Below are positions 39,636 through 57,324 of a stretch of DNA of 64,000 nucleotides, one piece after another. A program made the translations under genes and the position numbers. How positions within the stretch are numbered: the first letter of the stretch is position 1; every line of letters begins with the position of its first letter. A model generated the notes under the pieces. The model was given only the letters and a program-made list of their open reading frames with translations. It did no database searches and had not been told where the DNA came from. Source of the DNA: Pontibacter deserti (GTDB taxonomy: Bacteria; Bacteroidota; Bacteroidia; Cytophagales; Hymenobacteraceae); assembly GCF_023630255.1 (NCBI RefSeq), contig NZ_JALPRS010000001.1, forward strand, positions 2,046,001-2,110,000, given 5' to 3'.

Positions 39636-40376
39636 TTATACTTCCAGTACATAATACGGGATGGGCTTATCCAGCTTCTGTAAGAGTGGTTTGGCTACGT
39701 TAAATACCTTCACTCCTTTGGCAGTTTCGCCTTCTAAAGTACCTACGTGGGCATGCCCGTGAAAAGCAGCCAACACCTGCCTGCGCTCCAGTGGCTCTGC
39801 CAAACGCGAGGAGCCAAGGAAAGGATAAATGGCTTCCGGCTCGCCTTCTATAGTTGCCGCAATTGGCGCATAGTGCAGTACCGCTATTTTAGGCACATCC
39901 GGGTGCTCCGTTTCCAGGCGTGACAGAGCTCCATCTAACTTCAACGATTCATCTACGGCTTCCTGTACAAATTGCTTCATCATGGGTTCGCCAAACATGG
40001 CCAGCATAGCACGGTTAAAACCACCACCAAAGCCTTTTACACCGGCAAAGCCCACACCTTCCAGCACGATCATGTCGCCGTCCAGCATATTTACCCCAGC
40101 CTGGGCCAGTACCGTTCTGATAGCATCGTTTTCGTTGTGGTCATAATCATGGTTGCCAAGCACAGCTACTACAGGTATAGAACAGGCTCTTAGCTCCTGG
40201 CTCAGAATCTCAGCTTCCGAAGCCCGTCCATGGTCCGTCAGGTCTCCACAAATAAGGAGCACATCCGCATCAGCCGACACGTCTTTAAAAAAATCTGTCC
40301 ATTTGCCTTTGTCAGTATCACGCACATGTATATCACCAATAGCGGCAATGCGCGTTTTCTTCTTTTTTTTATCCAT
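39636..40376 (-). CDS. Metallophosphoesterase (calcineurin-like)
   Basis: 246 residues, no signal peptide. The metal-binding signature is complete: AIGDIHVRD, LICGDLTDHG, VLGNHDYDH, and C-terminal FHGHAHVG. A central segment (VGFAGVKGFGGGFNRAMLAMFG) is specific to a subgroup. It hydrolyses phosphoesters in the cytoplasm; the substrate is unknown. It starts four bases after the nucleotidyltransferase gene ends, so they form an operon. Confidence 0.9.
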   Translation of the reverse strand: MDKKKKKTRIAAIGDIHVRDTDKGKWTDFFKDVSADADVLLICGDLTDHGRASEAEILSQELRACSIPVVAVLGNHDYDHNENDAIRTVLAQAGVNMLDGDMIVLEGVGFAGVKGFGGGFNRAMLAMFGEPMMKQFVQEAVDESLKLDGALSRLETEHPDVPKIAVLHYAPIAATIEGEPEAIYPFLGSSRLAEPLERRQVLAAFHGHAHVGTLEGETAKGVKVFNVAKPLLQKLDKPIPYYVLEV

Positions 40377-40380
40377 TAGC

Positions 40381-41175
40381 CTAAATGGTTTTTATGGTAA
40401 CCACCTTATACTCCCACTCGGTAATATCGGTTTTGTACTGGGTCTGATCGATGATCGGCCCGCGACAAACTTTTTCTAATGAAGCCGGAAGTTCGTACTG
40501 ATGCTGCGCACGTTGGATCAGCTCGTCAAAAAGCCATTTAGGTATAATATCTCGGTCGGCGGGGTACACAAACTGGAAATTGATGATCTGGCTCAAAAGC
40601 AATTGCCAGTGCTGGTCCAGGCGGCTAAACAAACGTTTCCAGTCAAGCTTATGGCCATACTTCAGGAACAGGTGATTTACATCGGCACCATCGTAGCGTT
40701 CGCGGTTCTGCACATAAATCTTACACCAGATCAGTTCTTCCGGAGCCAGGAACTTTACAGGTATACCAAACACTTTACCCTTCACGGCATATTCATACCA
40801 GCTATCATCAACAGTGCAAATGTTATTTACCGTATCAAAAATGATATCTATATAATAACCATTCTGAAATACTTTCGCCAGCCAGCGGGCATCCGTAATT
40901 TCAGTTTGATACCCTTTGTCGTTCAGGTATTTAAGATGATACTGGTACTCGCTGGGCTTACAGAAAATATCCAGGTCTTTCATGTCGCGCACAATGCCGG
41001 TATACTCATACATGGCGTAACCACCACCCAGCAAGTATGGTGTAGGGCTGTCTTTCAGGAGCTCAAGGGTTTTTTTATAAAAGTCGTTGGCAATTTCCTG
41101 GCTGTTAACAACAACGTCGTTATTAGCCACTTTTTTGCCGTTCAAAACAACTTTATCTTCTTTTATCTTCTTCAT
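40381..41175 (-). CDS. Nucleotidyltransferase-fold protein
   Basis: 264 residues from the Met at 41175 (MKKIKEDKVVLNGKKV); the longer frame adds 23 codons without similarity. The fold is suggested by YLLGGGYAMYEYTGIVRDMKDLDIFC, in which the GG and D-x-D elements of Pol-beta-type nucleotidyltransferases occur, followed by IDIIFDTVNN with the third acid. It resembles the stand-alone MNT/NTP_transf_5-type proteins. Whether it is active is unclear. It is co-transcribed with the metallophosphoesterase, and a joint role in nucleotide or RNA end metabolism is conceivable. Confidence 0.75.
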   Translation of the reverse strand: MKKIKEDKVVLNGKKVANNDVVVNSQEIANDFYKKTLELLKDSPTPYLLGGGYAMYEYTGIVRDMKDLDIFCKPSEYQYHLKYLNDKGYQTEITDARWLAKVFQNGYYIDIIFDTVNNICTVDDSWYEYAVKGKVFGIPVKFLAPEELIWCKIYVQNRERYDGADVNHLFLKYGHKLDWKRLFSRLDQHWQLLLSQIINFQFVYPADRDIIPKWLFDELIQRAQHQYELPASLEKVCRGPIIDQTQYKTDITEWEYKVVTIKTI

Positions 41176-41350
41176 ATAGGATGTTACTAATAAATAGGTC
41201 TTGTTGCTGGTTCCGGGGCATGTATCAGGCAGGAGGCACAACAAGTAGGTAGGTTATTTACTTAATTCTGAAAGAATAGTTGTTCATCGAACACAAGAAA
41301 ACACCCGTATACCTGCTGAAAGAAGTACAAATACTATTTACTTATACTTT

Positions 41351-45164: not shown

Positions 45165-45734
45165 CTATAAACCTAGCTTTCTGAGCGCCAGCAGGCAAAG
45201 CGCAACCGAACCTGAAACATTGATCTGACCACTCAGCACCATATGCTCCACCTCCTGAACAGGTACGTGCAGCACTTCTATACTTTCCGATTCGTCGAGA
45301 TCCTGTTCCGCAATTTTGTAGGCATCGCGGGCTAGGTAGAAGTATATTTTGTTTGTGTCTTTGGTAGGGTTGTCGATCACTTCGGCTACCAGCTCCATGT
45401 TATCAGAAGTATAGCCGGTTTCTTCCAGCATCTCGCGGCGGGCAGCCTCCAGGGGGTTGTTTTCGTGGTCATCTATCACACCACCGGGTAATTCAATAAA
45501 AATATTAGCAGCAGCATGCTTGTACTGTTTCACAAATATCACCTGCCCATCTTCCGTAACCGGGAAAGTAAGCACTACATCCGGACGCACACTCACATAG
45601 TAATCATCCAGCACCATGCCGTTTGGCAGCTCCACTTCGTCGCGGCGCAGCTTGTACCACTTCTCATTAAAAACCAGTTCCGATTTCAGTACTTTCCAAT
45701 GTTTGGAACTTGGGATATGTTTGTTTGCAGACAT
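45165..45734 (-). CDS. NUDIX hydrolase (ADP-ribose pyrophosphatase type)
   Basis: 189 residues. The Nudix box is complete: GGVIDDHENNPLEAARREM followed by LEETG. The preceding VRPDVVLTFPVTEDGQVIFVKQYKHAA strand and the C-terminal EVLHVPVQEVEHMVLSG fit ADP-ribose/NDP-sugar pyrophosphatases. It would hydrolyse ADP-ribose or a sugar nucleotide in the cytoplasm. It lies 86 bp downstream of the glycoside cluster on the same strand, so it might control sugar-nucleotide levels for it, but could be independent. Confidence 0.9.
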   Translation of the reverse strand: MSANKHIPSSKHWKVLKSELVFNEKWYKLRRDEVELPNGMVLDDYYVSVRPDVVLTFPVTEDGQVIFVKQYKHAAANIFIELPGGVIDDHENNPLEAARREMLEETGYTSDNMELVAEVIDNPTKDTNKIYFYLARDAYKIAEQDLDESESIEVLHVPVQEVEHMVLSGQINVSGSVALCLLALRKLGL

Positions 45735-45820: not shown

Positions 45821-46639
45821 TTATTTTTTCCCATTCTGGCTGAGCATATACTCATTTTTGCCGGCTACTTTTTCTTTTACAGCTTCCTGCCAGTCCTGGC
45901 CTGTGGCCGATAAATACTCCGACTGGTTCCACTGCTGGTTTTGCTTAAGTTGCTCATCCACCTGCAGTATGTATAATTCGTGGCCTGGCTGTTCCTTTAC
46001 TACAAAGCCGCAGGAGCGCATCATGGCTACTATAGCTGCATGGTTAGGTGCCCACCAGTTAGTCAGGTCTCCGGCCATTTTCTTTTCGATAAAAGCCATT
46101 TTGGGCCAGCCTTCATCCAGCATGCGTTCTCGGTCATTTATTCCAAAATCTTCCGGCACATCGGCTACTTCTTTACCCGGCATGGTCAGCGTTTGGAACA
46201 CCATCATGTTGCGGCATTTTTGAGAAAGTATATCCAGGGAGAGCAGCGGGTACCGAAGGTGATAAAGCACACCCATGTACCAGATCAAGTCGAACTGGCG
46301 GTCCAGGCGGGTAACATCGTATACCTGCATCTGCTTCAGCTCTATTTTATCTTCCAGTCCAAACTGCTTAGCAGCCCATTCAGCCTGGCGCAGGTAATGC
46401 GGATCCACATCTATACCCAACACATTGGCCCCGCGTTTAGCGAGTTCTATACTATAAAAGCCGGCATTACAGCCAATGTCCAGCACATTCCAGCCACTCA
46501 AGTCAGCAGGCATAAACGGCTCCAGTTCCTTCCATTTAAAATTTGGAAAGTCGCCCAAACGGTGATTTGGTGCGGTCTGTTCCCCGTTTGGTAAATGCAG
46601 GTTATGAAACCATGGCCCCAACTGCTCTATCTCCGACAT
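45821..46639 (-). CDS. SAM-dependent methyltransferase, Rta_06860-like
   Basis: 272 residues. Motif I is WNVLDIGCNAGFYSIELAKRG, with DVDPHYLRQAEWA following. The first 35 residues (GPWFHNLHLPNGEQTAPNH, then LGDFPNFKWKELEPF) and the end NWWAPNHAAIVAMMRSCGF match, from memory, the TIGR04290 group of methyltransferases that travel with glycosyltransferases. That group relates in sequence to CmoB-like enzymes. It likely methylates a sugar hydroxyl or aglycone of the cluster product. Last gene of the cluster, 51 bp after the preceding glycosyltransferase. Confidence 0.85.
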   Translation of the reverse strand: MSEIEQLGPWFHNLHLPNGEQTAPNHRLGDFPNFKWKELEPFMPADLSGWNVLDIGCNAGFYSIELAKRGANVLGIDVDPHYLRQAEWAAKQFGLEDKIELKQMQVYDVTRLDRQFDLIWYMGVLYHLRYPLLSLDILSQKCRNMMVFQTLTMPGKEVADVPEDFGINDRERMLDEGWPKMAFIEKKMAGDLTNWWAPNHAAIVAMMRSCGFVVKEQPGHELYILQVDEQLKQNQQWNQSEYLSATGQDWQEAVKEKVAGKNEYMLSQNGKK

Positions 46640-46690
46640 AATTTAATTTTAAGTGAGTGATTGAGTGAATGTGTGAAATAAAGTTTACTG

Positions 46691-47770
46691 CTAACTGTTT
46701 ACTGTACTTACCGTCATAAGTTCCTGTGCGTAGCTTTCCAGTTCTTTGGCGCGGTGTGCTGCGGTGTGGTTGTTCATCACTTTTCTGCGGGCACGCTCGC
46801 CTATCATTTTACGCTCTGATTTGCAGATCTCACGCAGAAAACCCAGTGTATCTTTAGCTGAATAGGATACGAGTATCTCCTCCCCTATAGTAAACAAGCT
46901 ATCCAGTCCGTCCCAGTAATCTGAGATGATCGGGGTGCAGCATGCCGCAGCTTCGAACAGGCGCACACTTGGTGAGTAGCCGGCCTTGATCATATCGGCG
47001 CGGGTAATGTTCTGTGTAAAGCGCTGGCTGTTGTAAAACTTGCGGTGCTCTGCCGGCGGCAGGTGATGGATATACTCTGTGTTGGCAGGCCATTGTATAC
47101 TTGCCGGGTACTGCGGACCAGCTACCACAAAGCGTCCTGCAGGCCATTGGCGCGCTGCATCCAGCATCAGTTTTTCCAGTGGCGGCTGGCGGTCATCAGA
47201 GTAGGTACCCAGATATCCCAGATCCCATTTCACTTCCTGGTATTCCGGGTAGTATAGCTCCGTATCAAAAGAGCAGTAAAGGGCACGTGCTGCCGGCGAG
47301 CCATACTTTTTCTCCAGAAGGTCCAGTGTAGGGCCGCCTGTAAACGACAGGTACAGATCGTATTGCGGGATCAGGTTGGGATGCAGGTATTCGTAATCTT
47401 CTCGCTCCAGTTTGGCCAGCGTTACCGGGGTATCGATGTCGTAGAAAGCTTTAATACCATGAGCAGTTTGTATAGCCCACTCGCCTACCTGCACGCCTTC
47501 CGGCACATACGAACCAACTATAACCATATCCGCTTCGCGTACCTGTTCAGTAAAGCGCTGCTGCAGGTCATCCATCGAAGTATAAAGTTCGGTCTGGCAA
47601 TAGTCAGGGTTTGGCAGGTCGCGGTGGTCGGCATACCAAGGCTTATCGCGCTCCAGGAAAAGAATGTTGTGGCCCCTGTTTTTAAGCTCGCGCACCAACC
47701 CGCGGAAGGTGGTAGCGTGGCCGTTGCCCCACGACGATGTAATGGTCAGGCCAAGTATTACGATGTTCAT
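46691..47770 (-). CDS. CgeB-like glycosyltransferase 3
   Basis: 359 residues, GT-B fold. It opens with MNIVILGLTITSSWGNGHA followed by TTFRGLVRELKNRGHNILF, nearly the same layout as the next two genes upstream. The C-terminal nucleotide-sugar motif is SPSVRLFEAAACCTPIISDYW, then GLDSLFTIGEEILV, typical of CgeB/DUF3880-type glycosyltransferases. The start codon overlaps the stop of the preceding gene by four bases (ATGA). Donor and acceptor are unknown. Part of a tandem set of three. Confidence 0.85.
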   Translation of the reverse strand: MNIVILGLTITSSWGNGHATTFRGLVRELKNRGHNILFLERDKPWYADHRDLPNPDYCQTELYTSMDDLQQRFTEQVREADMVIVGSYVPEGVQVGEWAIQTAHGIKAFYDIDTPVTLAKLEREDYEYLHPNLIPQYDLYLSFTGGPTLDLLEKKYGSPAARALYCSFDTELYYPEYQEVKWDLGYLGTYSDDRQPPLEKLMLDAARQWPAGRFVVAGPQYPASIQWPANTEYIHHLPPAEHRKFYNSQRFTQNITRADMIKAGYSPSVRLFEAAACCTPIISDYWDGLDSLFTIGEEILVSYSAKDTLGFLREICKSERKMIGERARRKVMNNHTAAHRAKELESYAQELMTVSTVNS

Positions 47771-48873
47771 GCCAGTGCTTCGTTTGGTTGTTTTACTTTC
47801 GCGTATAGCAGTTGCTCGAGCTGCTCCGCACGGTGATTATACGTGTGCGCAGCCAGTACTTTTTTATAGGCTGCCTCTCCTATTGCTTTCGCTTTTTCTT
47901 CGGTCAGATCGGCAAGTATAGTTGCTACTTCAGCGCCATCTTTTGCTACCAGTATTTCCTTATCCGGCTCAAAAAAGAAGTCGATGCCTTCCCAGTAATC
48001 CGTAATGATGCAAGCCCCTGCACCGGCTGCTTCGAACACGCGCGTAGCCGGCGAGAAACCATAGCGGGCCATACTTTCGCGGCTGATGTTAAGTACAGCT
48101 TTTGGCGTACAGTTAAAAGCATTGTGCTCATGAGTGTACACGTGGCCAATATAGTTCACGTTTTCGCTCAGGTGCTTATCGCCCCAGCCGCTGCCGCCAA
48201 GTATAAACTTCTTATCCGGGTTAGCTTTTGCAGGCTTCAGGAAAAACTCTTCTACACGTGCTTCGCGGTCTGGCAAGCGGTTACCTAAAAAGGCAAGGTC
48301 GCAGGCAAAGCGCTCGTCTGGCTCCACCGGGAAGTGGGTGGCAGTATCCAAAGCATTATAGATCGGTACACACTTTTTAGCTCCCAACGCTTCGTAAGCA
48401 TTTACTACAGGGTCGCCGCCGCCATAGGTCAGGATCATGTCGTATTGCGGAATGTAGGTCAGGAACGGGTCCACCAGGTTGTTGTGCACGCGATCCAGCG
48501 TAGCCGGGGCATCCACATCCCAGAAAACCACCAGCCTGTCATCAGTCTGCAGTTTCAGCACTTCGCGCTCCAGCAGTTCATCAAACACACCCACGCCGCT
48601 GGCTTTTACTACCATGTCGGCTTCTGCGGCCTGTGCCAAGCATTTGTACACCGCATCTTCCGTAGCTTCGTACACCACTACTTTTGCCCAGTCCGGGTCG
48701 TCCATGTCGCGGTTTTGCTGGCGGTCGTAGGCATCAGGCTCATAAAATGTAACCTGGTGGCCACGCTCGCTAAGTGCACGAACTATACCTCTGTAGTAGG
48801 TAGCTGCTCCGTTCCAGTAAGCTGATACCAGGCTGGAGCCGAAGAAGGCGATATTGAGTTTTTTAGATTTCAT
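47767..48873 (-). CDS. CgeB-like glycosyltransferase 2
   Basis: 368 residues from ATG 48873 (MKSKKLNIAFFGSSLVSAYW); the open frame upstream is inside the previous gene. The N-terminal domain resembles that of its neighbours (NGAATYYRGIVRALSERGHQV). The C-terminal domain has GFSPATRVFEAAGAGACIITDYW and WEGIDFFFEPDKEILVA. It overlaps the preceding gene by 11 bases. The FEA-x-G-x(C/G) core and the glutamate within it are the sugar-nucleotide site. Sequence divergence from its paralogues suggests each adds a different sugar or acts on a different acceptor. Confidence 0.87.
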   Translation of the reverse strand: MKSKKLNIAFFGSSLVSAYWNGAATYYRGIVRALSERGHQVTFYEPDAYDRQQNRDMDDPDWAKVVVYEATEDAVYKCLAQAAEADMVVKASGVGVFDELLEREVLKLQTDDRLVVFWDVDAPATLDRVHNNLVDPFLTYIPQYDMILTYGGGDPVVNAYEALGAKKCVPIYNALDTATHFPVEPDERFACDLAFLGNRLPDREARVEEFFLKPAKANPDKKFILGGSGWGDKHLSENVNYIGHVYTHEHNAFNCTPKAVLNISRESMARYGFSPATRVFEAAGAGACIITDYWEGIDFFFEPDKEILVAKDGAEVATILADLTEEKAKAIGEAAYKKVLAAHTYNHRAEQLEQLLYAKVKQPNEALA

Positions 48874-50005
48874 GCAAGGTTTTTTCTTTTGCGGAAGTAT
48901 AGATTTTAGATGCAGGTATGCCCAGTTCTTCACACACTTTTTCCAATTCGTTTACGCGGTGGGCACAGGTATGGCGGTTGCGTATCGTTTCCAGGCCATG
49001 CGCGGCCACTTCATTTGCTTTGTCAGGATTATTAAGTATAGTTTGCAGGTGCTGTTTCATTTCTTCGCCGGTGCGAGCTATCAGGAAATCTTTTCCCGGT
49101 GTGAACAGGTTTTCAGCATCATCCCAAGGCGAAGAGATCAGCGGAATGCCACAGGCCATTGCTTCAAAAGGTCGTATAGTTGGGATACCCGGAAGTGCTT
49201 CTACATAAGGTCTGCGGGGCACATGTACAGTTACTTTATACTTTGCAAACTCTTCGGCAGCTTTATAGTTTGGCAGCCAGCCACCGTATTTTATTCCGGC
49301 ATCGGCCAGTGCTTTGCGTGCATGTTCCGGGTAGCGCACACCGTAAATCTTTGCTTTCAGACCCAGCTCTTTTACCGGATTTATCAAAAACTCGTGCAGC
49401 TCGGCTGTACGCTCTTCGTCGCCCCAGTTGCCGATCCACACCAGGTCGCCTTCATACTCTTTTCGTTCGTGCGGATAAAAAACCGAGGTATCAGCGGCTT
49501 CGTGCCAGGTCCAGGCGTTGGTGGTCCAACCTTCCTGCAAGTATAGATTTTTGATCACCTCGCCAAAGGCCAATACACCATCATAATGGGTCAGTTCATA
49601 CTTGGCCATACTTTCGCGCTCGGTTACGGCACGGTGGTGGGTATCGTGGAAGATAAGTTTATACTTGCCGCTTTTAGCGCGGTGTTCACCAATGCGCTTT
49701 ACCAGGTCATGTTCGCTCCATTCGTGTACCAGTACGAGGTCGGCATCAGCCAGTACATCATCCAGGTTTATGCTTTCAAGCTTGTAAAAATTGGTGCTGA
49801 TGCCAAGGTAATACTGCTGTAGCTCTTCCAGTTTCTCCTCTCCATAACCCTCTACTAAGTTTTGCAGGCTCCAGCCGTTTTCCGGTTCGTATACTTTTAC
49901 CTGATGACCACGCTCCTGCAACTCCCCGACTATACCTCTTAAAAAATGCGCGTTACCGTGGTTCCAGTCAGAAAGTATAGAATGGTAGAAAAGGACTAGC
50001 TTCAT
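48863..50005 (-). CDS. CgeB-like glycosyltransferase 1
   Basis: 380 residues. N-terminal domain MKLVLFYHSILSDWNHGNA followed by HFLRGIVGELQERGHQVKVYEPENGW; C-terminal domain with GIPTIRPFEAMACGIPLISSPWD and AENLFTPGKDFLIARTGEEM. It is the first and least reduced of three tandem CgeB-like enzymes. A 189-bp gap with a hairpin repeat precedes it, so it may have an internal promoter. It is cytoplasmic or membrane-associated; no transmembrane span is visible. Confidence 0.87.
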   Translation of the reverse strand: MKLVLFYHSILSDWNHGNAHFLRGIVGELQERGHQVKVYEPENGWSLQNLVEGYGEEKLEELQQYYLGISTNFYKLESINLDDVLADADLVLVHEWSEHDLVKRIGEHRAKSGKYKLIFHDTHHRAVTERESMAKYELTHYDGVLAFGEVIKNLYLQEGWTTNAWTWHEAADTSVFYPHERKEYEGDLVWIGNWGDEERTAELHEFLINPVKELGLKAKIYGVRYPEHARKALADAGIKYGGWLPNYKAAEEFAKYKVTVHVPRRPYVEALPGIPTIRPFEAMACGIPLISSPWDDAENLFTPGKDFLIARTGEEMKQHLQTILNNPDKANEVAAHGLETIRNRHTCAHRVNELEKVCEELGIPASKIYTSAKEKTLHEI

Positions 50006-50079
50006 GTGCTAATTTTGATTTAGTGAGTAATTGAGTGAATTTGTTATTGTTAAACTTTGAATGAATGGTGGGTATAGTC

Positions 50080-50148
50080 GTCATTTCAGATGCAGCGAGA
50101 AATCTATCAGAGAATCTGAGATAGATCTCTCCCGCTGATCGAGGTGAC
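50080..50148. repeat. Hairpin repeat inserted in the glycosyltransferase cluster
   Basis: GTCATTTC...GAGAAATCTATC pairs imperfectly with GATAGATCTCTC...GAGGTGAC: arms of about 29 bases around an 11-base loop. This GTCATTTC-AGCGAGAAATCT type is related to the ATGACAA-ending blocks in the other repeats (10750-10790, 45030-45160). It fills the only large gap in the cluster. Confidence 0.7.
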
Positions 50149-50194
50149 AAAGGAATTATTCACCCATTCAAAATTCAGTTATTCAGAATTTGGC

Positions 50195-51301
50195 TTAAGC
50201 AGTTACAGGTTCGTTGAGCAATTGTCTGTAGATGTGATTGTAATCCTGTGCCATCTGATCAGCGGTGTAGCCATGCGAGCGCTTTACAGAGCGGCAGGCC
50301 ATAATGTTACGGCAGAATTCATCTTCTATAAGCCCGTTTATGGAATCGCGCAATTCATCAGCATTGTTAGGGTCGGCATACTTGGCAGCATTTCCCCATA
50401 TCTCTGCCTGGCTCTCTGTTTTGCCCACTACCAACGCACAACCCGACATAGCGGCCTCTAAAATTGTTAAGCCAAACGGCTCATATTTTGCTGGCAGCGC
50501 ATAAATAGATGCCCGGGATAACCAGTCTGATACTTCTTTAGTAGTTAGCTTACCGAGGAAATGTACGTTCTCCAGTTCTACTGTTTTACCGGTAGCCGGA
50601 TGTTTATCGTCGCCGGCAATGTAAACCGGCCATTGCAGCTCAGCAGCAATGTGAGCAAGCATCGAAATGTTCTTAGCTTCGTCCCAAACACGACCCAGGC
50701 TAAAAACAAAAGGCTCTTTTCTACCAAACTGGAAATGATGCTGCCCGCGACCATTATAAACTACGCTGCTCTTTCTGAATGGCCCGTATAGTTCTTCGGC
50801 CTGGTGCAACATGGCCTGTGTTGGTGCCACTACCACATCAGCAGCCTGTAATCCTTTTTTAACAAGCTCTTTATACTTGTTCCATTCTTTAGGAGCCTCT
50901 TCGTCTTTCACGGCCTTCCACCAGCTCAGCACACAAGAGTGTACCACCGCAACAACAGGTTTTCCCCAATCCAGGGCAGCGTGCGCCATACCATTCAGGT
51001 GAATAAGGTCCGGCTGTATTTCATCTCTCAGTTGCAGCAGCCATTCCCCGGCCTTTTCTACATCTTCCCAGGGGTTATCCATCCACTCCAGCTTAAAGTC
51101 GCTTTCGTAAATGGTAAGGTTGCTGATGGCAGCGGCCTCTTCGCGTTGTTCTTCGGACATGCGGCCTCCCATGGTAGCTACTGCTACCTGTGTTCCTGTC
51201 TGCTCCAGTGCTCTGGTCAGTTCCAGCGTATAGGTCCAGACGCCGCCAACCGTATCGGCTGTCATTAAAATCTTCGAAGGGTGGTGATGATGTACTTCCA
51301 T
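50195..51301 (-). CDS. Glycosyltransferase family 4 protein
   Basis: 368 residues. GT4 landmarks are DTVGGVWTYTLELTRAL at the N-terminus (glycine-rich donor loop), SLGRVWDEAKNISMLAHIAAEL, and the E-x7-E element EPFGLTILEAAMSGCALV. The segment HLNGMAHAALDWGKPVVAVVHSC carries the acceptor-side His. It follows the Gfo/Idh gene after four bases. Likely transfers the first or core sugar in the cluster pathway; donor unknown. Confidence 0.9.
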   Translation of the reverse strand: MEVHHHHPSKILMTADTVGGVWTYTLELTRALEQTGTQVAVATMGGRMSEEQREEAAAISNLTIYESDFKLEWMDNPWEDVEKAGEWLLQLRDEIQPDLIHLNGMAHAALDWGKPVVAVVHSCVLSWWKAVKDEEAPKEWNKYKELVKKGLQAADVVVAPTQAMLHQAEELYGPFRKSSVVYNGRGQHHFQFGRKEPFVFSLGRVWDEAKNISMLAHIAAELQWPVYIAGDDKHPATGKTVELENVHFLGKLTTKEVSDWLSRASIYALPAKYEPFGLTILEAAMSGCALVVGKTESQAEIWGNAAKYADPNNADELRDSINGLIEDEFCRNIMACRSVKRSHGYTADQMAQDYNHIYRQLLNEPVTA

Positions 51302-51305
51302 GATA

Positions 51306-52352
51306 TTATCTCCCGTAAATTTTATCTAATACTTCTGCTACTCTCACAAATTCTTCGGCCTCTTCGTTAAAGCCTTCGCCTTTAGCCAGACGTTCTGCCC
51401 AGTCCACTCCTGCTCTTCCCGACCAATCATCAGGTGGTGAGCACAATACCTCTGTTTTAGTACCGTAATAGCGCTCGGCTACAAAATCGTAAAAAGACCC
51501 GTTGGTGTTTTTCAAGGCTACGCCGCCTTCTGTGCCATAAAATGTAGCGTTGATGATGGCTTCCTGGCCTGCTGGTAAATTCCAGGAACAGGTTAGCTGC
51601 AGATGTGTGCCGGTTGCTAAGGCTATACTTGCTGTGGCATAATCTTCTACCTTGCCTTCGGCCATACTTATAGGTTTGCCTTTTGCAAATAGCTGGCTGT
51701 GCACTTCCTTTACTTCCGGGAAGTTCAGCGACCATAAGGCCAGGTCTACCAGGTGCACGCCAAGGTCTATTACACAGCCGCCACCAGAAAGTTTCTGTTC
51801 ATAAAACCAGGCTTTATCCGGGCCATAGGCATTATGAAAAACCAGCTCTACCGCATAAATATGGCCTAACTCACCTGACTGCACCACCTTGTATACTTCC
51901 TGCATGGCTTTTGTGTAGCGGTACGACAGGTCCACGCCTAACAGTTTGTTATGGCTGCGGGCAGTATCTACTACACGGCGGGTTTCTTCTATGTTACGGC
52001 CAAGGGGCTTCTGGCAGAAAACAGCTTTACCTGCTTCCAGGGCCAGCATACTTTGCTCAGCATGAAAAGCACTTGGCGTAGCGATCACTACTCCATCTAC
52101 TTCAGGTTCATTAATGACGGCTTCCAACGAATTTACCTGTGTAGCTCCAGGAGCACTTTTCAGGGCTTCAGATGCATTTTGAGGCAAGGTATCAGCTATA
52201 AAAGCCACTTCGCCGGCTCCATTTTTTGCTATCACTTCCATGCGGTTTCGGCCAATCCAGCCGACACCTAAAAAGCCTAGTTTAGGTTTGGTTGATGTCG
52301 CCGAAGAAGGGATAACTGTATGTTGTTCCTGATCAAGTATAGTTTCCTGCAT
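51306..52352 (-). CDS. Gfo/Idh/MocA-family NAD(P)-dependent oxidoreductase
   Basis: 348 residues. Rossmann loop KPKLGFLGVGWIGRNRMEVI; the cofactor-proximal motif is FCQKPLGRN, with the usual EKP replaced by QKP; the C-terminal sheet domain includes SGGGCVIDLGVHLVDLALW, with the catalytic Asp-x3-His. A 20-residue tail before the fold is unusual. It probably oxidises or epimerises a sugar or inositol at a hydroxyl carbon. Spaced three bases from the MDR gene upstream and four from the GT4 downstream, so strongly coupled. Confidence 0.9.
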   Translation of the reverse strand: MQETILDQEQHTVIPSSATSTKPKLGFLGVGWIGRNRMEVIAKNGAGEVAFIADTLPQNASEALKSAPGATQVNSLEAVINEPEVDGVVIATPSAFHAEQSMLALEAGKAVFCQKPLGRNIEETRRVVDTARSHNKLLGVDLSYRYTKAMQEVYKVVQSGELGHIYAVELVFHNAYGPDKAWFYEQKLSGGGCVIDLGVHLVDLALWSLNFPEVKEVHSQLFAKGKPISMAEGKVEDYATASIALATGTHLQLTCSWNLPAGQEAIINATFYGTEGGVALKNTNGSFYDFVAERYYGTKTEVLCSPPDDWSGRAGVDWAERLAKGEGFNEEAEEFVRVAEVLDKIYGR

Positions 52353-52355
52353 GTA

Positions 52356-53372
52356 CTAAAAAGTTATTAAGGCCTTCACAAATCCATCAGGGCGTGATGT
52401 CAGATCATGAAAGGCTTCGCCAATATTTTCTAAAGTATAGGTATGGGTGTAGAGCTTTTCAGGATCGATGGCACCCTGCTCCACGGCTATAACTGCTGCT
52501 TTTATACCTTTGATGTACTCCTGTGGGTCCCGTTCGTGTGCGTTTATCACATCCAGGCCACGCCAGTTCCAGAGTTGGATGTTTACCTGCCGCATGCCAT
52601 CCTGATGAAAACCAGCGATAATGAGTTTGCCGCGTTCTGCGGTAAGTTCGCCGGCCAGGTTAAGCGGCCATTCTTTTCCGGTGCACTCTACTACGCGTTC
52701 GCAGAACTTTCCGTTGGTCAGTTCACTAACTTTTTGAATAATTTTATAGTGATCATCCATTTTGATCACCTCATCTGCACCACATTGTTTTGCCACATCC
52801 AAAGAGAAGTCGCGCTGGGAAATAGCTATAACCCGTGCTCCCGCATTTTTGGCCAGTTGCACCAGCAAAGCCCCCAGAAAGCCAATACCAAGTATAGCTA
52901 CTGTTTGCCCTGCTGAAATATCGCTGCGCTTGAAGATGTTCATGGCACAACCCAACGGCTCTCCCGGAAAAGGCTTACCCGCCAACGTATCAGGCAGCTT
53001 CACCACCTTATCAGCATCGGCTATGTCGTAAGCAGCATATGATTTATAAGACAGCGCTGCTACGCGATCACCGACTTTTACATCGGTTACGCCTTCGCCA
53101 ACGGCATCTACCAAGCCCCAGCCTTCGTGTCCCGGATTGCCGGCCTCTACGGGGTAGTTAAACCACTCCCGGCCTTCCCACACCGGTATGTTAGACGCGC
53201 ACAAACCGCAGCCTTCCAGCTTAACCCGAACCTGGTTTGCGCCGGGTTCGGGCAGCGGTACTTCCTGAACTTCCACAGTTTTAGGAGCCGTTAGTACTGC
53301 AGCCTGCATAGTGGCAACATAAGTTTGTGTGGCTGTTTTTTTTTCTGTTGTAAGGGTGTCTTGGTGTTGCAT
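52356..53372 (-). CDS. Zinc-dependent MDR alcohol dehydrogenase
   Basis: 338 residues. The catalytic zinc region is GCGLCASNIPVWEG and NPGHEGWGLVDAVGEGV; NAD loop GIGFLGALLVQLAKNAGARV. The four-cysteine structural zinc loop of classical ADH is absent. Similar enzymes oxidise polyols or sugar alcohols. The ATG shares one base with the stop of the preceding fusion gene (TGATG), indicating coupled translation. Its pairing with a Gfo/Idh enzyme suggests sequential redox steps on a sugar. Confidence 0.88.
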   Translation of the reverse strand: MQHQDTLTTEKKTATQTYVATMQAAVLTAPKTVEVQEVPLPEPGANQVRVKLEGCGLCASNIPVWEGREWFNYPVEAGNPGHEGWGLVDAVGEGVTDVKVGDRVAALSYKSYAAYDIADADKVVKLPDTLAGKPFPGEPLGCAMNIFKRSDISAGQTVAILGIGFLGALLVQLAKNAGARVIAISQRDFSLDVAKQCGADEVIKMDDHYKIIQKVSELTNGKFCERVVECTGKEWPLNLAGELTAERGKLIIAGFHQDGMRQVNIQLWNWRGLDVINAHERDPQEYIKGIKAAVIAVEQGAIDPEKLYTHTYTLENIGEAFHDLTSRPDGFVKALITF

Positions 53373-55438
53373 CAGGCTACAGCTACTTTATTTTCTGTTT
53401 CAACTTTTTCTTCGATGTCTGCTTTTTCAGAGGTCAGGATCATTGGCACCTGCAAGCCACGGTTTTCGCACAGCCACTGATAAAGCTTTGCCACACCCTC
53501 CTGCACATTGTGCTTCGGATACCAGCCGGTTGCTTCCTGAAACTTGCGTGTATCGGAAACATAATAGTGCTGATCTCCGGGGCGCCAGTCTCCAAACGAA
53601 AGTGCAATCTTCTTGCCCCTGTACTTACCTATAGTTTTAAGCAGTTCAAGCAGGCTTACCGTATTCTCGGGGCCGCCGCCAATGTTAAAGGCTTGTCCTT
53701 TTATGCTAGGCATGTGCTCCTGCGCCAGTAAAAATGCATCTACCAGATCTTCTACAAAAAGGATATCCCGAACTTGCTTGCCATCTCCATAGATACTGAC
53801 AGGCTTACCTTCTATGGCCCGGATAGCAAAATGAGCAACCCAGCCCTGGTCTTCGTTGCCATACTGGTGAGGACCATAAATACAGCTCATCCGGAAAACA
53901 ACGGCAGGTATATCATAGGTGCGGGCGTAGTCGATCACATACTGGTCGGCAGCTCCTTTAGAGCAACCATACGGACTATGAAAGTCGAGTACGCGTGCCT
54001 CACTGATTCCGTTTTCTTTTATATTCTCATCTGCAGGGTAATAGCGTGATCCATTTGAAATGAATTTAAGGTCTTCCAGGCCGCCGTATACTTTGTTAGT
54101 GGATGTGAACACCAGCGGTGGCGGGTTATCCTGTTCTCTGATCGCTTCCAATAAGTTGATAATGCCACGCGCATTAACTTCAAAATCGTTGAGCGGCAGG
54201 TCGAGAGATGTGGTTACGGCTACCTGTGCCGCAAAATGGAAAACAGCTTCGGCACGTTTCATTACTTTACGCACCGTTTGCAGGTCGCGAATGTCCCCAA
54301 CGTATACTTCCAGCTTATGGCCATAGGTGTCATGCAGCCATTGCAGGTTCTGCTCTACCCCGTCGCGGTTCAGGTTATCGAATATCATTACACGCTTTCC
54401 ATCATCCAGCAGCCGCTTCGCGAGGTTGGTACCCACAAATCCGGCTCCACCTGTAATTAATGTATAAGGTGCTGTGTCTTCAGCTAAGGTGCGTTTAATA
54501 AAATCCAACTGATCCAGTTTTTCGATGCCGTGTTTTGCCCATAGCCTGTAAAGCAGTTTAGTTGAACCATCAGATTTTTTCAATCCAAAATGATACTCCC
54601 GGTCATCAAGGTGGAAACCGGCTACCGTAGGCAGGTTGGCATCCAAGTCGCTGATACCATACCAATATACCCGTGTAGCATCTGCTTTCAGAGCTTCTTT
54701 AAATTCCTGTACTTGCTTGAATTCATCATGCTGCCAGGTCGAAAAGCCGGCTTCAGTAATCCAGAGTTCGGCTTTGCAGTTGTTCTGGTTCATTACCTCC
54801 CGCACTGCTTTTATCTTTTCTTCCCAGCCATCCCATACCTGGTCGAACACATATGGGAAACCATGTATACCTACGGCATCAATGTACTGCATCACGCCGT
54901 GGTCGAACATGCTCTGCAACCAGTTGGGGTCTATCGGGCTCATGCCTCCCAGCAATGTTTTTTTACCACGCTGCTGGCACCAGTAGGCTGCACCACCCAC
55001 CATTTCGGCAAATTTGTTCCAGCCATAGTCTAAGGTAAAATCATACTCTACTTGGTTATTTGGCTCGTTCCATAGTTCTACCCACTCAAAGTGTTGCCCA
55101 TGGTCGGTGATGAATACATCCAGGAAATCGGCATAGGCTTTTTTATCTTTTGGTGGTGCCGATGTGCGGGGCTTTTCACCTATACTTGGTGGAGTATACA
55201 GAAAGCATGGAAGTATATTTATTTCTTTAGCCAGCGTAGGTATCAACCAATCGTACCAGCTCTTTCCTTCCGGAGTATAATAGTCGGCCCAGGATACACC
55301 GGTGCGCAGTTCAGTTACCCCCAGTTCCTTCAGGTCTTTTAACACCTGCATTACATGCTCCCGCTCCCCAGGTCTGAACCATTCAACAAGCCCTACAACA
55401 GGAAAAGTATTCTTTACTGTATTATTATGCATTTTCAT
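53372..55438 (-). CDS. Glycosidase - NAD-dependent sugar epimerase fusion
   Basis: 688 residues without a signal peptide. N-terminal half (about 10-310): clan GH-A TIM barrel with acid/base Glu125 in ELWNEPNNQ and nucleophile Glu229 in LWITEAGFSTW, as in GH39 and relatives. C-terminal half (about 327-660): extended SDR with GGAGFVG at 330-336, Tyr490-x3-Lys494 (YGCSKGA) and STNKVYGGLEDL, which is characteristic of CDP-paratose 2-epimerase-like enzymes. A cytoplasmic glycosidase joined to a sugar-nucleotide epimerase is unusual. It may couple hydrolysis or transglycosylation with donor formation; this is inference. Overlaps the next gene by one base. Confidence 0.85.
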   Translation of the reverse strand: MKMHNNTVKNTFPVVGLVEWFRPGEREHVMQVLKDLKELGVTELRTGVSWADYYTPEGKSWYDWLIPTLAKEINILPCFLYTPPSIGEKPRTSAPPKDKKAYADFLDVFITDHGQHFEWVELWNEPNNQVEYDFTLDYGWNKFAEMVGGAAYWCQQRGKKTLLGGMSPIDPNWLQSMFDHGVMQYIDAVGIHGFPYVFDQVWDGWEEKIKAVREVMNQNNCKAELWITEAGFSTWQHDEFKQVQEFKEALKADATRVYWYGISDLDANLPTVAGFHLDDREYHFGLKKSDGSTKLLYRLWAKHGIEKLDQLDFIKRTLAEDTAPYTLITGGAGFVGTNLAKRLLDDGKRVMIFDNLNRDGVEQNLQWLHDTYGHKLEVYVGDIRDLQTVRKVMKRAEAVFHFAAQVAVTTSLDLPLNDFEVNARGIINLLEAIREQDNPPPLVFTSTNKVYGGLEDLKFISNGSRYYPADENIKENGISEARVLDFHSPYGCSKGAADQYVIDYARTYDIPAVVFRMSCIYGPHQYGNEDQGWVAHFAIRAIEGKPVSIYGDGKQVRDILFVEDLVDAFLLAQEHMPSIKGQAFNIGGGPENTVSLLELLKTIGKYRGKKIALSFGDWRPGDQHYYVSDTRKFQEATGWYPKHNVQEGVAKLYQWLCENRGLQVPMILTSEKADIEEKVETENKVAVA

Positions 55439-55471
55439 AATCTGTAATTCTGATTCTTGTTGAGAAGGATA

Positions 55472-56590
55472 TTAAACTGTAAGACCCCGGGCAGCCAGTT
55501 CGGCGCTCGCTTCGCTTACACGGTCATAGGCAATCTGCCCTTCGAGCCAGTCAGCCAGTTCTTCCAGGCCACCATTAAATTCTACCTGCGGATAAAAGCC
55601 CAGTATCTGTTTTGCTTTAGAGATATCGGCGTAGCAATGTCTGATATCACCTACTCTATACTTGCCGGTAACTTCCGCGACTAAGTGCTCTTTGTTCATT
55701 ACTGTTGCCAGGCGCTCAGCAATCTCACTTATAGTATAGTTGTTTCCGCTGCCCACGTTAAATACATGGCCATTCGCTTCGTCTTTTTCCATTGCCAGGC
55801 GACAAGCTAAAGCCACATCACGCACATGCACAAAGTCGCGCTGCTGGTAGCCATCTTCAAAAATCATTGGGGAGTTGTTGTTCAGGAACCGGGATGCAAA
55901 AATGGCCAGCACACCAGTATAAGGGTTAGATAATGCCTGCCGCGTGCCATACACATTAAAGAACCGCATGGCTACTGTTGGTATGTTATAAGCGCGCCCT
56001 ACCATTAAGCAAAGGCGCTCCTGGTCGTATTTGGAAAGTGCGTAAACCGATGATAAACAAGGGGTTTTGGTTTCGGGGGTGTGAAGCGGCTCTAATTGAT
56101 TGCCTGCAGCATCGTAAAGTTCCCAATTGGCAGCTTTCAGTTGTTCCAGCGGTCGTTCTTCAGCGGTTACCACTTCGCCCTGCTGGTTCTTATACAGCCC
56201 CTCGCCATAGATGCTCATGCTGCTGGCCACTACCAGCTTTTTAACAGGGTTCTTGATCAGGGCTTCCAGCAATACAGCAGTGCCAATATTGTTGACGTCT
56301 GTATACTCTTTTATCTCATACATGCTCTGCCCAACGCCTACCATTGCTGCAAAGTGGTAAACTATATCCACACCTTCCAGGGCACGTTTTACATCTTCCG
56401 GGTTGCGCACATCCCCTACCATCAGTTCAACATCTTCGTGCAGGTATTCAGGCCGCCCGCAGTCTTTGCCATGCACCTGTTCGCTCAGGTTATCCAGCGC
56501 TCTTACACTATAGCCATGCTTCAGTAATTCATCCGCCAAATGAGAACCAATAAAGCCGGCTCCGCCTGTTATCAAGACTTTGTTTTTCAT
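55472..56590 (-). CDS. NAD-dependent sugar epimerase/dehydratase (GalE-like)
   Basis: 372 residues, extended SDR. NAD loop ITGGAGFIGSHLADELLKHG; catalytic SSMSIYGEG (Ser) and YALSKYDQE (Tyr-x3-Lys); C-terminal substrate domain with GYQQRDFVHVRDVALA. An insertion at about 140-180 (including TAEERPLEQLKAANWELYD) lies before the YxxxK region. The substrate is likely a nucleotide sugar (UDP- or GDP-hexose). Second gene of the cluster, 29 bp after the SDR gene, 33 bp before the fusion gene. Confidence 0.9.
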   Translation of the reverse strand: MKNKVLITGGAGFIGSHLADELLKHGYSVRALDNLSEQVHGKDCGRPEYLHEDVELMVGDVRNPEDVKRALEGVDIVYHFAAMVGVGQSMYEIKEYTDVNNIGTAVLLEALIKNPVKKLVVASSMSIYGEGLYKNQQGEVVTAEERPLEQLKAANWELYDAAGNQLEPLHTPETKTPCLSSVYALSKYDQERLCLMVGRAYNIPTVAMRFFNVYGTRQALSNPYTGVLAIFASRFLNNNSPMIFEDGYQQRDFVHVRDVALACRLAMEKDEANGHVFNVGSGNNYTISEIAERLATVMNKEHLVAEVTGKYRVGDIRHCYADISKAKQILGFYPQVEFNGGLEELADWLEGQIAYDRVSEASAELAARGLTV

Positions 56591-56619
56591 AGTTTATATG
56601 TGTTGTTTGTAATCAAAAG

Positions 56620-57324
56620 CTAAAATGGCTGCGCAGTTGGCCTTATAGTAATATGGTTCGCAGAAACCCCCTCAGGCTGTTGCAATGCATAAAGCACTGC
56701 ATCTGCTACCGCCTCAGGCGATAAAGCTCCATAACCTATACTCTCAACCGTCTGACTTCCAGATATCGTATTTTCAAAAAAAGCTGTGTCCGTAACTCCG
56801 GGCGCAACTACCGTTACTCTTACAAAAGGCAGTACCTCCAGGCGCAGTGTTTCTGCCACTACCTCCAGCGCAGTTTTGGTTGCAGCATAAATACCACCAT
56901 AGGTATAAGCCTTTCCGGCAGCTACCGACGAAATGATCACCACATCGCCTTTGCCTTTCTCCAGCATAGCCGGCACAAAAGCCCGGATCAGCCGGAGTGT
57001 ACCTAACAGGTTTGTTTCAATTACCTGCTTCCACTTTTCGGGGTCACCTTCCGTAAGCTTCTCGTGCACGCCACGGCCAGCACTACATACCAGTATATCT
57101 GGCAGTCCCAACTTTCTATTTAATTCTGTAAACAAAGTGTCTGTGGCAGGTGCGGAGACCACATCACTTTTAATGTATAAGGGCTCTTGAGGCAGGGTAT
57201 CGGGGAGGTTCAGATCAGCAACAGCCGTTTTTACGCCATGTTCCAGTAGTTTTGCAGCAATCGCTTTACCAATACCGGAAGCCCCACCACTAACTAATGC
57301 TTTTCTACCTCTCAGGTCCTGCAC
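56620..57324 (-). CDS. Short-chain dehydrogenase/reductase (SDR)
   Basis: 234 residues, classical SDR. NAD(P) loop ALVSGGASGIGKAIAAKLLEHG, NNAG equivalent CSAGRG, catalytic Ser in ISSVAAG and Tyr-x3-Lys in YGGIYAATKTALE. It is the first gene of the minus-strand cluster; upstream the divergent gap to the acetyltransferase gene must contain the cluster promoter. Substrate unknown. The gene could also be a passenger, but the 29-bp spacing to the epimerase gene argues for membership. Confidence 0.9.
   Translation of the reverse strand: MQDLRGRKALVSGGASGIGKAIAAKLLEHGVKTAVADLNLPDTLPQEPLYIKSDVVSAPATDTLFTELNRKLGLPDILVCSAGRGVHEKLTEGDPEKWKQVIETNLLGTLRLIRAFVPAMLEKGKGDVVIISSVAAGKAYTYGGIYAATKTALEVVAETLRLEVLPFVRVTVVAPGVTDTAFFENTISGSQTVESIGYGALSPEAVADAVLYALQQPEGVSANHITIRPTAQPF

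Follow-up and report, generated by a model that had tools for sequence, protein, structure and literature searches.

The DNA analyzed here, called the window below, is a stretch of 64,000 nucleotides from Pontibacter deserti (contig NZ_JALPRS010000001.1, positions 2,046,001 to 2,110,000). On its minus strand it carries ten consecutive genes for oxidoreductases, epimerases, glycosyltransferases and a SAM-dependent methyltransferase. We give roughly an even chance to the reading that this cluster encodes a conserved cytoplasmic pathway to a small O-methylated glycoside of several sugars, used by the cell to survive stress. Gene order, enzyme families, folds, conservation, loss of the cluster with sparing of its GT4 glycosyltransferase gene, and alphaproteobacterial EcfG motifs are the observations beneath this reading. 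From them we infer the order of the steps, the donors, the acceptor, the position of the methyl group and a stress role in the phylum of the window. The genes are as follows, in the direction of transcription, with the evidence in parentheses.

56620..57324, minus strand: SDR oxidoreductase, lineage-specific first gene (PF00106, 129 bits)
55472..56590, minus strand: Epi1, NDP-sugar epimerase, UDP-glucose 4-epimerase-like (PF01370, 181 bits)
54473..55438, minus strand: N-terminal half of a fusion protein, clan-A TIM-barrel glycoside-hydrolase (GH)-like domain (AlphaFold2 (AF2) model, Foldseek, motifs)
53375..54472, minus strand: C-terminal half of the fusion, CDP-tyvelose 2-epimerase-like SDR (phmmer)
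52356..53372, minus strand: MDR zinc-type dehydrogenase (PF00107/PF08240)
51306..52352, minus strand: Gfo/Idh/MocA oxidoreductase (PF01408/PF22725)
50195..51301, minus strand: GT4 glycosyltransferase, retained when the rest of the cluster is lost (genus counts, dN/dS, trees)
48863..50005, minus strand: CgeB1, Glyco_trans_1_2 glycosyltransferase (PF13524, 132 bits)
47767..48873, minus strand: CgeB2, retaining GT-B glycosyltransferase, likely ATG start at 48873 (PF13524, 141 bits; AF2, Foldseek)
46691..47770, minus strand: CgeB3, Glyco_trans_1_2 glycosyltransferase, the second most persistent gene (PF13524, 115 bits)
45821..46639, minus strand: TIGR04290 SAM-dependent methyltransferase (MT) (341 bits against a cut-off of 300)
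45165-45734: NUDIX, flanking gene

The original prediction, made from the letters of the window, had described ten minus-strand open reading frames (ORFs) in this order from 57324 to 45821. Its domain assignments hold, including that of the methyltransferase to the Rta_06860 type, the family modeled by TIGR04290. The compact spacing it reported is found over most of the cluster. The fusion and MDR genes overlap by 1 bp, CgeB2 and CgeB3 by 4 bp, and CgeB1 and CgeB2 by 11 bp with the ATG at 48873 (71 bp if the longest ORF is taken). Gaps of 29 bp (SDR-Epi1), 33 bp (Epi1-fusion), 3 bp (MDR-Gfo/Idh), 4 bp (Gfo/Idh-GT4) and 51 bp (CgeB3-MT) separate other neighbors. Apart from the 51 bp before MT and a 189-bp gap between GT4 and CgeB1, the spacing is operon-like. 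The 189-bp gap had been passed over. As this gap is long and ranges from 39 to 611 bp in relatives, it may mark a boundary between transcription units. The NUDIX gene was rejected as an operon member because it is retained in genomes that lack the cluster. In agreement with the earlier description, a Pfam scan of the ten proteins gave no match to polymerase, flippase or exporter families.

To determine how widely the cluster is conserved, we surveyed related genomes. In a first sample from the genus, 22 of 37 genomes encode a TIGR04290 protein above the cut-off. Of the 21 other cluster-positive genomes, 20 have the full series from SDR to MT in order, with NUDIX next after MT in 19 of these 20 intact loci. 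The 21st, locus L051 (genome G026), shows a decaying cluster that lacks Epi1 and the fusion and has a short MDR, a split CgeB1 and a stop codon within the methyltransferase gene, while GT4 is intact. At the level of the family, the methyltransferase is encoded in 51 of 200 sampled genomes and in five of six genera; it was found in none of a sample of 394 other genomes of the phylum. The gene order from Epi1 to MT, nine genes in all, is the same in each of the 16 loci taken from other genera of the family, excepting loci that run off the fetched stretch, and Epi1 is 79-88% identical across the family loci. The original prediction had taken the cluster for one biosynthetic unit and had named gene order conserved in no relative as its refutation. 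That refutation fails clearly: the order is kept in every relative examined, and the arrangement is therefore not due to chance. As for the size of the unit, all ten ORFs are present but the conserved core has nine genes and the SDR stands outside it. The SDR adjoins the cluster in 22 of 22 cluster-positive loci of the genus and in none of the 15 cluster-negative genomes; in other genera it was seen in two of 16 loci, some of which end before its position. The fusion is split into two genes in one relative (L082). In one genus (L072, L076, L084, L086), several kilobases of unrelated secreted-enzyme genes, by eye carboxylesterase-like, polysaccharide-deacetylase-like and others, are inserted between CgeB3 and MT.

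GT4 behaves differently from its neighbors. It is encoded in all 50 genomes sampled from the genus, and the cluster in 26 of them. The 15 cluster-negative genomes have GT4 at the same site, between a GNAT or histidine phosphatase gene and NUDIX, and 10 of them also retain a member of the CgeB3 clade. At these loci (L178-L192) what is left is GT4 or GT4 with CgeB3. A tree of GT4 and a tree of the flanking genes each require six or more switches between presence and absence of the cluster along supported branches. The dN/dS of GT4 is 0.03-0.06 with or without the cluster, a sign of purifying selection. In the other genera of the family, 24 of 25 cluster-bearing genomes also have GT4. The trees indicate six or more losses of the cluster within the genus, GT4 always being spared. 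Because GT4 is always kept under purifying selection despite this repeated loss, the sequences argue for a selected function of GT4 that does not depend on the cluster, and most of the other genes have the look of a dispensable elaboration module that can be removed from around it. This amends the original prediction: GT4 can be separated from the cluster and persists after its loss. Loss is more likely than horizontal gain within the genus, given that the cluster is present in outgroup genera and the GT4 and flank trees are in broad agreement; homologous recombination may have exchanged sequence around GT4.

The genome of the window is not alone in having this system. Comparing gene content with other genomes that hold the Rta_06860-type methyltransferase, as had been proposed, tblastn against plasmids recovered nearly the same gene set in nearly the same order from Rhizobium, Sinorhizobium, Paracoccus and Xanthomonas. 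Identities are about 50-63% gene by gene and lower, 32-46%, for GT4. The proteobacterial copies add a UDP-glucuronate decarboxylase (UDP-xylose synthase, UXS) to the operon. The window cluster has no UXS; one 48% homologue is encoded elsewhere in the same genome. In the alphaproteobacterial copies MDR and Gfo/Idh are usually a divergent pair, and in loci of the S. meliloti type the GH is a separate gene. A scan of 84,980 species confirmed at least 570 relatives of the methyltransferase. Among the best 80 of these loci, mostly from Hyphomicrobiales and Rhodobacterales, 63 have Epi1 and 64 have GT4 with CgeB1 and CgeB2. GT4 and CgeB genes also occur together at loci in Acidobacteriota and in a metagenome-assembled genome labeled Actinomycetota (Williamsia). 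The Sorangium locus has only one CgeB, a methyltransferase and a GH homologue.

Two further observations concern gene neighborhoods. At 39636-41244 of the window a metallophosphoesterase gene lies beside a nucleotidyltransferase-like gene. Homologues of this pair (50% and 42%) directly adjoin the cluster on R. etli p42b (L091, 10341-11880), and for this reason the pair may be functionally linked to it. A second type of TIGR04290 locus was also encountered (L115, L126, L128, L135, L140, L142, L144, L150, L154, L155, L167 and L169), with the arrangement MT'-INO1-HisPase-CgeB'-NTP transferase-GH-PIG-L-GT4' in varying subsets. Its components are an inositol-phosphate synthase, a histidine phosphatase, a CgeB, an NTP transferase, a stand-alone GH, a PIG-L deacetylase and another GT4. 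These genes seem to specify a different methylated glycoside, perhaps one of inositol.

We searched upstream of Epi1 for GGAAC-N16/17-YGTT, the promoter motif of the general-stress sigma factor EcfG. It is present within 350 bp on either strand in 41 of 66 loci, against an expectation of 3.6%. With the search limited to the sense strand and to 120 bp, the motif occurs at 25 of 66 loci and in 26 of 1863 control upstream regions (p=2e-25, with relatedness ignored). In a whole-genome alphaproteobacterial set the motif precedes 38 of 61 loci, in 21 of 32 genera, while 359 permuted motifs average 0.8 of 61. The few permutations that score high leave GGAAC unchanged and have a displaced second box that falls on the same site. 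The motif agrees with that of R. etli EcfG1, GGAAC-N16-CGTT (PMC3892343). These predicted sites are strong evidence for stress control of the cluster in Alphaproteobacteria, and lend indirect support to a soluble or compatible-solute-like role. For the Bacteroidota copy a stress link would hold by analogy only.

The fusion protein had been predicted to join a glycosidase to an epimerase. Its C-terminal half matches 9rl0 and 1orr over the full length (phmmer, 300 and 295 bits), which corrects the epimerase to the CDP-tyvelose 2-epimerase kind; with the next-best epimerase far below, at 130 bits, this half probably epimerizes C2 of a nucleotide sugar. For the glycosidase half, Pfam gives no match at E 1e-3 with the whole protein or at E 0.1 with the window domain. 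Against the PDB, a single-sequence search gave no match and a profile search none at E 0.01. Its AF2 model (pLDDT 84.6) is a TIM barrel, and Foldseek places it nearest to PslG (5bx9, E 5.8e-15) and a GH39 enzyme (5jvk, 1e-11). As the sequence searches found nothing, this kinship rests on the fold search. The WNEPN and WITEAG motifs are intact in the window, and the acid/base and nucleophile glutamates are retained in the genus and most Proteobacteria. By eye, the domain has no obvious signal peptide. In two other genera (L074, L075, L077, L079, L080) the nucleophile is an alanine, WITEAG having become WITAAG, and the protein is retained.

For Epi1 the best solved relatives are UDP-glucose 4-epimerase and related epimerases. 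The NCBIfam matches of MDR include scyllo-inosose 3-dehydrogenase (100 bits), all far under cut-off, and the nearest solved relative of Gfo/Idh is DgpA (99 bits). GT4 comes nearest to N-acetylglucosaminyl phosphatidylglycerol synthase (43 bits, best NCBIfam) and PimA-type enzymes (28 bits, best solved). The AF2 model of CgeB2 (pLDDT 89.9) has a GT-B fold, and its nearest Foldseek neighbors, ManT (7qsg), sucrose-phosphate synthase (SPS), BshA and MshA, all use soluble acceptors. Among solved proteins the methyltransferase comes closest to CmoB (58 bits), and it scores 70.3 and 66.5 bits with CmoB models whose cut-offs are 209 and 275.

In the proposed pathway GT4 would make the base glycosidic bond on an acceptor, a placement chosen because it is the one gene always retained. 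CgeB3 would attach the next sugar, and CgeB1 and CgeB2 would extend the chain. Unusual donor sugars could be supplied by Epi1 (C4-type) and the fused TyvE-like domain (C2-type), with UXS contributing a donor in Proteobacteria. MDR and Gfo/Idh may oxidize and then re-reduce a ring position, the GH-like domain may trim or transfer a cytoplasmic intermediate, and the TIGR04290 enzyme would cap a hydroxyl with a methyl group. More tentatively, and with somewhat less than an even chance, we propose that the product belongs to an undescribed class of stress metabolites, methyl-capped mixed-sugar glycosides made by one pathway across Bacteroidota, Alpha- and Gammaproteobacteria, to which loci in Acidobacteriota and Actinomycetota would be related. 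In the genus of the window it would be built on a universally kept base glycoside made by GT4 with or without CgeB3. The three locus states (GT4, GT4 with CgeB3, full cluster) would follow from such a base glycoside being kept by every species of the genus. The original prediction held the product to be apparently undescribed, and we likewise found no paper naming TIGR04290/Rta_06860 or describing the cluster, in a search that left the real locus tags of S. meliloti 1021 outside its scope.

Several points weigh against a soluble stress glycoside. The sigma factor EcfG is alphaproteobacterial, and a stress link drawn from it cannot simply be carried over to Bacteroidota; a search upstream with a simple promoter pattern of Bacteroidota gave no match; and the p value for the motif takes no account of relatedness. 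The loss of GH catalytic residues in some genera counts against strictly required hydrolysis. As the nearest families of GT4 include lipid-acceptor enzymes (GlcN-PG synthase, PimA), a glycolipid product is possible. This is the main rival, though we consider it unlikely: GT4 would glycosylate phosphatidylglycerol, diacylglycerol or a similar lipid, and the CgeB enzymes with the methyltransferase would build a methylated headgroup. Such a product needs no exporter, and the presence of GT4 in every genome of the genus is what one expects of a core lipid enzyme. However, the lipid-enzyme matches of GT4 are all far under the curated cut-offs, CgeB2 is modeled like glycosyltransferases of soluble acceptors, and no acyltransferase or lipid gene was recognized as a recurrent neighbor of the cluster.

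Less probable still is a role of the cluster in supplying or decorating a surface polysaccharide (lipopolysaccharide, exopolysaccharide or an O-antigen side chain) whose polymerase and export are encoded elsewhere. Genes like those for the 4-epimerase, the 2-epimerase and UXS typically supply donor sugars in polysaccharide loci, and the closest fold to the GH is PslG, the hydrolase of the Psl locus. PslG is periplasmic; the GH domain of the window, in contrast, appears to be cytoplasmic and is fused to an epimerase. Neither the cluster nor, as far as genes were recognized, its recurrent neighbors include a polymerase, flippase, ABC exporter or priming transferase, and the cluster recurs across phyla as a self-sufficient unit. 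We think it improbable that the aglycone is inositol, with MDR and Gfo/Idh interconverting inositol stereoisomers in the making of a methylated inositol glycoside. The inositol-phosphate synthase, phosphatase and PIG-L deacetylase of the second locus type would fit, as would the scores of Gfo/Idh with inositol 2-dehydrogenase (121 bits) and of MDR with scyllo-inosose dehydrogenase, but both oxidoreductases fall below the family cut-offs (355 and 450 bits). No PF01658 inositol-phosphate synthase is encoded in the genome of the window; across the genus, PF01658 occurs in 11 of 22 cluster-positive and six of 15 cluster-negative genomes, showing no association.

Hundreds of soil, plant-associated and marine bacteria appear to carry the pathway to the proposed glycoside, apparently including the model rhizobia S. 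meliloti 1021 (pSymB) and R. etli CFN42 (p42b). With the EcfG promoter link and the reduced natural forms of the locus, the question of the product can be put to a direct test. Few bacterial stress glycosides are known, and a new protectant, if confirmed, would be added to them.

Among known systems, the closest are the TIGR04290/Rta_06860 loci of Rhizobium, Sinorhizobium, Paracoccus and Xanthomonas, a family annotated as a hypothetical equivalog. They are alike in enzymes and nearly identical in order; they differ in the added UXS and in a GH half that is sometimes detached, and the SDR at the start of the operon belongs to the genus of the window. The absence of polymerase, flippase and ABC export genes sets the ten genes apart from a capsule or exopolysaccharide locus. 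The C-terminal half of the fusion resembles CDP-tyvelose 2-epimerase (RfbE/TyvE, PDB 1ORR) over its full length, but it is fused to a GH-like domain and no CDP-paratose pathway gene is among the ten. With PslG and GH39 glycosidases the N-terminal half shares the barrel and the acid/base and nucleophile motifs, kept in the genus; unlike them it has no sequence-family match, is by our inference cytoplasmic, and has lost the nucleophile in some genera. The match of the methyltransferase to CmoB, a tRNA carboxymethyltransferase, begins at about CmoB residue 103-110, the N-terminal region of CmoB being absent. ManT, of the methylmannose polysaccharide (MMP) pathway, is the top fold match of CgeB2, and MMP is also a methylated cytoplasmic saccharide; the two proteins are 15% identical, CgeB2 is of the CgeB family and the partner enzymes are different.

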